DNA of 64,000 nt from Limonium bicolor (Eukaryota; Streptophyta; Magnoliopsida; Caryophyllales; Plumbaginaceae). Below, one piece after another: positions 21,191 through 21,948 of this stretch (the first letter of the stretch is position 1; every line of letters begins with the position of its first letter). A program made the position numbers and the translations under genes. The notes beneath the pieces were generated by a model. That model was not told where the DNA came from. It made no database searches and worked only from the letters and a program-made list of their open reading frames with translations. Location: assembly GCA_023374045.1 (NCBI GenBank), contig CM041783.1:121025503-121089502 (forward strand), in the 5' to 3' direction.

Positions 21191-21948
21191 TTAATACTTC
21201 CTAAAGGTAAGGTTCAGGCGTCCTGGTTTCATGTGTGTGGCATTGATTATTGCCGGCGGTGCCGTATTCAACTTGATCTTGTTGATCCCGTGATACAGCA
21301 TCCGTGAGTTTCCACCCATGATGAGGACATCTCCTGATCTCAATACCAATTTCTCTGCGAGGTCCACACGCTTCTGCTCGCTATACAGGAATATGGCGTC
21401 ATCACCAATGGACCAAGACACTACGGGCACTCCTTGTTCAAGAGATTCCGCTGTCTCGTCCTTGTCTTGGTGTAACCCAAGTCGTCCTTCTTTCTCGTAG
21501 AAGTTGACGATACAAAGGTCCGCTTCAAGTGCGGGGATTGGTTCAGGTTCACATTGCTGTGCAAGTTCAACTGCTTGAGTGATGAGGGTCTGAAACTCTG
21601 GTGGTATTGTCGGTGGCGTTGCTCCATCGTGTTGTCGTGTCTCCTGGTATGTCTTGGTATAAGGATTCCAGTCCTTTCCCAAGCACATCATCTTCAGCTT
21701 CATCTTCGCTCCACCGGGGAATTCGGGTGTATAAAATCCACCTTGACCCGTTCCTAGCTCGTTGCATCGTCGAATAATTGAGATTTGCGCTTCGGGTGTC
21801 AGGTATCCCCTTAATAAGATCATACCTGGGCGGATGACCTGACACTGTTCGTTGGTGTAGTCGTTGTTGGTGATGTCGATCTCTTCTTGATCCAAGGTAA
21901 CCGGTATCGGATAACAGATACTAAAGCTTCCTAAGGTTATAAATTCAT
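21191..21948 (-). CDS. AlkB/ALKBH1-type Fe(II)/2-oxoglutarate dioxygenase inside the retrotransposon
   Basis: Open for 252 codons including the stop, from a likely 3' splice site at 21948 to TAA at 21191. It has no obvious own ATG at the front, so it is probably made as the C-terminal part of a gag-linked protein. Numbering from Leu at 21895 as residue 1, the double-stranded beta-helix core shows NFY (131-133), the iron ligands H142 and D144 in LGLHQDKDE, the distal His H202 in RMLYHGI, and the 2-oxoglutarate arginines in RLNLTFRKY (R226, R232). Upstream elements GGFYTPEF and LKMMCLGKDWNP also fit plant ALKBH1-like proteins. That family oxidatively removes methyl groups from nucleic acids (roles proposed on DNA 6mA and tRNA m1A). 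Length and ending match the catalytic domain of host ALKBH1, without its N-terminal extension and without introns. The domain lies between the gag zinc knuckles and protease, same strand. The substrate here is unknown. Confidence 0.93.

Follow-up and report, generated by a model that had tools for sequence, protein, structure and literature searches.

A family of Ty3/gypsy chromoviruses in Limonium bicolor carries an ALKBH1-type dioxygenase exon placed for alternative splicing to Gag

Background

How does a dioxygenase domain of the AlkB family come to lie between the gag and protease regions of a plant retrotransposon, and is it of use to the element that carries it? These questions are raised by a 64,000-nucleotide stretch of the Limonium bicolor genome (assembly GCA_023374045.1, contig CM041783.1, positions 121,025,503 to 121,089,502 of the forward strand), which is referred to here as the window. 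A preliminary description, made from the letters of the window, had proposed that a plant chromovirus captured the domain from a spliced host transcript. Following up that proposal, we found that AlkB-bearing elements form several subfamilies in this genome, that their AlkB domain is retained under purifying selection, and that a single splice donor at the end of gag faces two acceptors, the nearer of which leads to Gag-AlkB and the farther to Gag-Pol. Element features described below are on the minus strand, and their positions are those of the window.

A complete AlkB domain inside a chromovirus

The AlkB frame extends from stop to stop over positions 21970-21191 of the minus strand (259 codons), while a plus-strand reading of 21191-21948 is interrupted by stops. 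Against the Pfam 2OG-FeII_Oxy_2 profile (PF13532) the frame scored 154.1 bits (E 6.9e-45), well over the curated cut-off of 31.2 bits, with residues 49-257 covering profile positions 1-194 of 194. The NFY and HQD motifs, the distal histidine and the RLNLTFR segment are all in place and the domain itself has no intron; the full AlkB signature and the intron-free domain of the preliminary description were thus both confirmed. Judged by domain content, the frame is a complete predicted AlkB/ALKBH1-type 2-oxoglutarate (2OG)-Fe(II) dioxygenase. Comparison with solved structures gave the rice 2OG-Fe protein 5xeg as the top match (247.8 bits), with E. coli AlkB chains at 71-79 bits and ALKBH1 chains at 43.6-45.5 bits; no ALKBH5 chain was present among the 21 solved-structure matches at E <= 0.1. 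The structure predicted for 245 residues of the AlkB exon product, using an alignment of 33 sequences, had a mean predicted local distance difference test score (pLDDT) of 92.3 and a predicted template modelling score (pTM) of 0.89. The rice structure as best match, the presence of ALKBH1 among the matches and the ALKBH1C/D-like names of the public protein matches together point to the ALKBH1 type, and the named host relatives are annotated as DNA N6-methyladenine (6mA) demethylases.

Read along the minus strand, the element presents gag, a CCHC knuckle, AlkB, protease (PR), reverse transcriptase (RT), RNase H, an integrase zinc domain and a chromodomain, so that AlkB stands on the strand of the element between zinc knuckle and protease, as had been claimed. 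The gag-PR-RT-RNase H-integrase order, the C-terminal chromodomain (23.9 bits, just below the Pfam cut-off of 25.1) and the long terminal repeats (LTRs) identify the element as a Ty3/gypsy chromovirus, again in agreement with the first description. It may resemble the Tekay clade.

Copies across the genome

The 2.92 Gb assembly containing the window was searched with protein queries. These searches score the best candidates only, and their first-pass candidates (53,005, 46,666, 52,095 and 67,767) are not copy counts. With the window AlkB as query, 147 best candidates were scored, every one at least 92% identical to the window domain, and by a hand count about 130 of the 147 had no internal stop. 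Searches with the host ALKBH1 protein P0006 and with the public protein P0002 returned 96 and 141 matches, respectively, mostly from other element families. From these AlkB searches 54 loci were fetched, of which 52 are distinct (L043 is L038, and L045 is L041).

Gag, AlkB and PR-RT follow one another on one strand in 50 of the 52 distinct loci, the exceptions being L034, which lacks a gag match, and L052, which lacks a PR match. At least five subfamilies can be told apart among them: A (30 loci, including the window copy), B (11), C (8), L041, and the pair L048/L049. AlkB identity is 66-77% among B, C, L041 and L048 and 54-61% between these and the AlkB of the window. In all six loci that were read more widely (two from A and a single one from each of the remaining subfamilies) the full order continues through the chromodomain. 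Many copies with AlkB in one and the same place rule out a single-copy or stand-alone pseudogene insertion; neither of the two outcomes that would have undone the capture proposal, a domain confined to this copy or a lone processed ALKBH1 pseudogene, was encountered. As a separate observation, the AlkB domains of L048 and L049 (C3:350856005 and C3:350867966) are 100% identical and lie 12 kb apart on one contig.

One splice donor and two acceptors

Two features of the element went beyond the preliminary description: gag is split by two introns, and AlkB is an exon behind a splice acceptor. Gag exon 1 (22904..23581) holds the capsid (Retrotrans_gag 3.8e-16, Ty3_capsid 5.9e-12), and its end is fixed by intron-less copies. 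It is followed by intron 1 (22790..22903), by exon 2 (22516..22789, from the frame, with edges from intron-less copies), by intron 2 (22433..22515) and by exon 3 (22088..22432), which contains the zinc knuckle (zf-CCHC 2.9e-6) and the gag tail. Exon 3 ends at a phase-1 donor, 22088/22087, which is shared by two phase-1 acceptors. The nearer, 21931/21930, closes intron 3a (21931..22087) and opens the AlkB exon with its own stop codon (21191..21930); the farther, 21051/21050, closes intron 3b (21051..22087), within which AlkB is skipped, and opens the pol exon with protease and reverse transcriptase (19552..21050; RVP_2 9.1e-27, RVT_1 3.7e-38).

The layout recurs across the family. An AG/G (the slash marking the splice position) is found at the AlkB acceptor in 43 of 43 loci whose DNA was examined (A, B, C and L041). 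Nine further loci were available as protein only, and in these the AlkB segment is preceded by stops with no methionine between, so that translation of the conserved FDIC-like segment requires an upstream exon. The PR acceptor could be placed in 41 of the 52 loci (in A, B and C) and is AG/G in every one of these; in the other 11 it was not located. Phase 1 holds for the donor in 24 of the 29 knuckle-bearing A loci, as well as in L031, L037, L041, L044, L046, L048 and L053.

An AlkB fused in frame ahead of PR was considered and rejected, because in each of the 52 loci AlkB terminates at a stop that follows RLNLTFR-x-Y or a variant differing by one letter, and because PR has its own AG/G acceptor. 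One donor serves two acceptors, the near one giving a Gag-AlkB that ends at the AlkB stop and the far one a Gag-Pol that skips AlkB.

Processed genomic copies of the spliced RNAs

In an element that is copied through RNA, introns lead one to expect some genomic copies derived from spliced RNA. The introns, the donor and both acceptors had been written down ahead of any search for such copies. A genome search with gag scored 150 matches, five of which reach residue 222 only and have long frames; in all five (L061-L065) intron 1 is exactly missing and the rest is kept. The genome was also searched for the two predicted 29-base junctions, allowing up to 3 mismatches, with control patterns alongside. 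The Gag-AlkB junction was detected at one place (control 0) and the Gag-Pol junction at nine (seven with 1 mismatch and two with 3; control 0).

The Gag-AlkB copy, L066, has lost introns 2 and 3a exactly and has kept intron 1. Six of the nine Gag-Pol places were fetched, and intron 3b is exactly missing from each. L068 and L072 also lack introns 1 and 2, each exactly; L071 also lacks intron 2 and L070 intron 1, again exactly, with intron 2 of L070 falling in an unaligned gap; L067 and L069 have apparently kept introns 1 and 2 at about 71% identity. The predicted frame continues across the joint in 7 of 7 fetched junction copies, and L069 has a stop further upstream in gag. These copies provide strong indirect evidence that both spliced RNAs have been made and reverse-transcribed, and the differing mixtures of removed introns in L061-L072 suggest that reverse transcription extends to RNAs that are only partly spliced. 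As judged from genomic copies, the element would thus belong with the plant LTR elements whose introns are removed from part of their RNA.

The nine AlkB-less copies with a clean junction could also be taken for empty sites, the AlkB-less form being ancestral and AlkB having entered later as an intron-like insertion. Against this, introns 1, 2 and 3b are missing together from both L068 and L072, L070 and L071 each lack more than one intron, and L066 lacks 3a yet has kept AlkB. Moreover, families that share no more than 54-61% identity in AlkB all have the domain, so it is old. We regard a late insertion as very improbable.

Conservation and selection

Catalytic residues are kept throughout the 52 loci. 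N156, Y158, H167, D169 and R257 are conserved in 52 of 52 and H227, R251 and N253 in 51 of 52, so that the HxD...H iron ligands and the RxxxxxR co-substrate arginines are found across the set; a stop inside the domain occurs in 10 of 52. For AlkB, the pairwise ratio of nonsynonymous to synonymous substitution (dN/dS, omega) has a median of 0.126 among the copies of A (435 pairs) and of 0.142 among those of B (55 pairs). Comparisons of different non-A subfamilies give medians of 0.055-0.092, from pairs with unsaturated dS only (for instance 25 of 88 pairs for B-C); the dS of A against all other subfamilies is saturated throughout. Between-subfamily values elsewhere in the element are 0.076-0.171 for PR, 0.015-0.031 for RT and 0.083-0.102 for gag, and within-family gag values run from 0.039 (A) to 0.271 (C), all of them from loci with an unbroken match only (PR-RT 23 of 51, gag 34 of 51).

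Choosing loci by AlkB similarity favours open AlkB frames, and the genome was therefore searched independently with gag. From the 150 gag matches scored, the expected AlkB site was fetched for ten places spread down the list; one of these, L076, was also among the AlkB-search matches, and the sample represents copies with good gag. AlkB is present at all ten places and forms a single open frame at eight of them, with an internal loss in L075 and a broken frame in L081; in L074 the domain is open and the exact RLNLTFR is missing. The omega of the gag-chosen AlkB domains has a median of 0.160 and a pooled value of 0.166 (45 pairs). The AlkB domain is thus retained under purifying selection (dN/dS about 0.055-0.17).

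These results bear on the view that the domain is a neutral passenger, which might draw on the degradation of most copies elsewhere. A dN/dS of about 0.06-0.17, well below 1, catalytic residues kept in 51-52 of 52 loci whose proteins diverge by up to 46%, and open frames in 8 of 10 gag-chosen copies make this view extremely unlikely.

Origin of the AlkB clade

The AlkB tree contains 73 rows: 12 of the 52 loci, six public proteins, 45 plant, algal or similar proteins, and 10 outgroup rows taken for bacterial from their size and names; ALKBH5, 9 and 10 were left out. The 18 element-like rows form one clade with support 100/98, separate from host ALKBH1. The shared order, the single clade, the low dN/dS and the kept catalytic residues together support the capture and retention first proposed. 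Within the clade, public proteins are interleaved with the loci: P0001 and P0003 with family A and, at weaker joins, P0043 with L041 and P0002 with L048. If the contigs behind these proteins hold elements, several subfamilies may therefore predate the split of the plant from those sources. A search of public proteins with gag returned a single match at E <= 1e-10, P0158, which is 64% identical and whose frame stops just beyond the same intron-1 donor as the window gag. This match provides a link for one of those sources, as the longest contig of P0158 has 26,621 bases, equal to that of P0001, whose AlkB is 72% identical.

With the outgroup rows included, the element clade branches off before every green-plant row (host-side support 84/84); without them, and with an algal root, it falls inside the seed plants (97/94), near the flowering-plant base at a poorly resolved node (85/60). 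We read the placement outside green plants as long-branch attraction. The position, and with it the apparent source lineage of the captured AlkB, depends on the root. The domain is free of introns and shares its end point with host ALKBH1, as would be expected had it been captured from a spliced transcript, although the host ALKBH1 gene of this genome was not found. The better host ALKBH1 matches are 48-54% identical over 81-87% of the query.

Among public proteins 37 matches of about 605-1925 amino acids were considered as possible Gag-AlkB-Pol polyproteins, and none of them lists a gag or RT domain. The top two are host-like Smallanthus sonchifolius proteins, P0121 and P0122, with four and two tandem AlkB stretches, respectively. 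A scan of IMG/VR with the AlkB domain gave 9 pattern matches, and no relative was confirmed among them.

Proposed function

The explanation that we consider likely is that a chromodomain Ty3/gypsy element captured an ALKBH1-type gene, splices either Gag-AlkB or Gag-Pol from its RNA, and is served by the enzyme. An ancestral plant chromodomain element would have taken up, from an ALKBH1-type gene of its host, the part that encodes the catalytic domain, free of introns and with its native stop, and would have kept it while diverging into several families. Competition of two acceptors for the single donor at the gag end would yield, from the near one, a coat protein with a dioxygenase tail and, from the far one, Gag-Pol. 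In the role that seems most likely, Gag would bring the enzyme, within granules or particles of coat protein, to RNA or cDNA of the element itself, and the enzyme might there strip methyl marks that hinder copying or lay the element open to control. We infer that the fusion protein exists as an active enzyme, that its targets are nucleic acids of the element and that the element gains from this. In Arabidopsis, removal of N6-methyladenosine (m6A) by ALKBH9B frees the RNA of the retrotransposon ONSEN (PMC9289625; also in the excerpted text of PMC12786077).

A more specific form of this explanation, which we offer tentatively, is that the competing acceptor delivers a Gag-borne demethylase into the particle, where it would act on packaged RNA, the tRNA primer or nascent cDNA. 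A single splicing choice would then set enzyme output against Pol output, and the arrangement would have been kept through the chromovirus radiation.

Several observations weigh against the proposed explanation. In the remaining non-A loci, many of them in B and C, the donor either was not recognised or has an out-of-phase GT as its best candidate, which we read, without proof, as decay of those copies. Gag-AlkB splicing is recorded by one processed copy versus nine for Gag-Pol, and the spliced RNAs, the putative fusion protein and its presumed activity are deduced from genomic sequence. Only 23 of the 51 loci scanned have an unbroken PR-RT, which means that the majority of copies are dead. 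The window copy has an in-frame stop in the gag tail ahead of the donor (22146-22148); the tail is free of a stop before the donor in 20 of the 29 family-A loci with a recognisable knuckle. Lastly, alignment with host relatives names no substrate.

Two other assignments of the target were weighed. The enzyme could act mainly on host targets (mRNA, chromatin DNA or tRNA), either fused or freed by the protease, and thereby damp silencing. The naming of host relatives as DNA 6mA demethylases would agree with this, as would the report that rice ALKBH1 takes 6mA off R-loops and affects gene expression (PMC10469495); host RNA targets are also raised by the authors of the orchid study described below (PMC9289625). 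The splice layout, in contrast, makes AlkB the tail of Gag, and wherever the upstream frame of a locus was examined, the conserved FDIC segment is untranslatable without an upstream exon. We consider a mainly host-directed enzyme unlikely.

The other assignment is a repair role, in which the enzyme would clear the RT-blocking marks 1-methyladenosine (m1A) and 3-methylcytidine (m3C) from packaged RNA or from the tRNA primer. In animals, tRNA is a substrate of ALKBH1, and the primer-binding site of the element is presumably of the initiator-methionine type. A repair role has also been proposed for plant viral AlkB, according to work cited in PMC9289625. On the other side, this role is a special case of the explanation that we favour, and its substrate is a presumed one; taken by itself it appears doubtful.

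Comparison with known systems

The closest known system is Gypsy_Pa_2799 of Phalaenopsis, a 25 kb Ogre/Tat element with dual RNase H and a tRNA-Arg primer site, in which Gag-Pol is a single open reading frame (ORF) and an ALKBH5-like domain ends a separate ORF2 (Alvarado-Marchena et al. 2022, PMC9289625). That ORF2 demethylates m6A RNA in vitro, and among 121 genomes screened the domain was seen only in Phalaenopsis (PMC9289625). Both are amplified plant Ty3/gypsy elements with a captured AlkB-family gene whose co-factor residues are kept. The Limonium element, however, has neither the separate ORF2 nor the one-ORF Gag-Pol, and it is of neither the Tat nor the tRNA-Arg type, having a chromodomain and the primer site TGGTATCAGAGC; its domain is ALKBH1-type, occupies a place between gag and PR, and is attached to Gag through splicing. 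It therefore differs from the orchid precedent in AlkB branch, element lineage, position and mode of expression. The preliminary description named no standard gypsy lineage defined by such a domain; the orchid ALKBH5-like lineage is, however, in print (PMC9289625), albeit of a different kind.

Host plant ALKBH1 (ALKBH1D-like; rice 5xeg) shares the domain, its C-terminal end and the FDIC-like segment, whereas the copies inside elements group in a clade apart and are without the long N-terminus of the host proteins. Splicing is described as balancing Gag and Gag-Pol in the plant LTR elements Ogre, EVADE and BARE (excerpts of PMC12786077 and PMC6317226); in those excerpts the alternative product is no named enzyme, whereas here the donor picks an enzyme tail or Pol. 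Plant RNA viruses of the Alphaflexi-, Betaflexi- and Closteroviridae, as cited in PMC9289625, are likewise mobile genomes with an AlkB of their own; they differ from the element in being RNA viruses. Sunflower Tekay elements with 5' additional ORFs are plant chromoviruses with an added conserved protein, which stands before gag and has no known domain in the excerpted PMC11728184, and so differ in position and domain. AlkB, dioxygenase and demethylase are absent from that paper, and the words AlkB and dioxygenase from the text of PMC7264820, PMC6317226 and PMC11728184. No AlkB-bearing chromovirus was found in the open-licence papers searched, preprints being outside the scope, which does not by itself show its absence from print.

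Other features of the window

The element is bounded by a 5' LTR (23792..27660) and a 3' LTR (13382..17258) of about 3.87 kb, which differ by 61 substitutions in 3829 aligned bases (Kimura two-parameter distance, K2P, 0.0161); at the substitution rates that we assume, the insertion would be about 0.6-1.2 million years old. A target-site duplication was not seen, as the 5 bases flanking each side differ. The primer-binding site TGGTATCAGAGC (23775..23786), read from the sequence beside the 5' LTR, is what we take to be the usual initiator-methionine tRNA site by its presumed complementarity. A purine-rich tract (17259..17274), also a sequence reading, adjoins the 3' LTR, its putative role being assigned by analogy. 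RNase H, integrase and chromodomain (17675..19693; RT_RNaseH 4.2e-36, Integrase_H2C2 1.3e-19, SH3_Tf2-1 2.6e-23, Chromo 4e-5) are broken in this copy, and reading of the frames bore out the three frame changes and one stop first reported for its pol.

A second pair of LTRs (28701-32818 and 37949-42067; 4.1 kb each, 98.9% identical, 5.1 kb apart) is about 75% identical to the LTR of the AlkB element across 220 bases. Nothing between its members matched any of nine queries from the window element, so it may be a non-autonomous relative. A further LTR-like stretch (9708-13379), about 66% identical to the element LTRs, abuts the 3' LTR at 13382. Tandem arrays of about 70-72-base units with palindromic cores, for example GGACTTGCAAGTCC, lie within LTRs at 11393-11788, 15054-15405, 25481-25810 and 30649-30937, and the array in the neighbouring element's LTR is built of a different unit from that of the AlkB element. 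A 431-amino-acid open frame on the plus strand (3966-5261) had no Pfam match.

Conclusions

The Limonium elements add a second lineage to the plant gypsy elements that carry an AlkB enzyme. Both the branch of AlkB and the kind of element differ from those of the first, which suggests that nucleic-acid methylation repeatedly matters to plant retroelements. They also present a clear choice between enzyme and Pol by alternative 3' splice sites, both junctions of which are preserved as processed genomic copies. As the family is abundant, diversified and, in the window copy, young (LTR distance 0.016), the effect of the enzyme should be testable.
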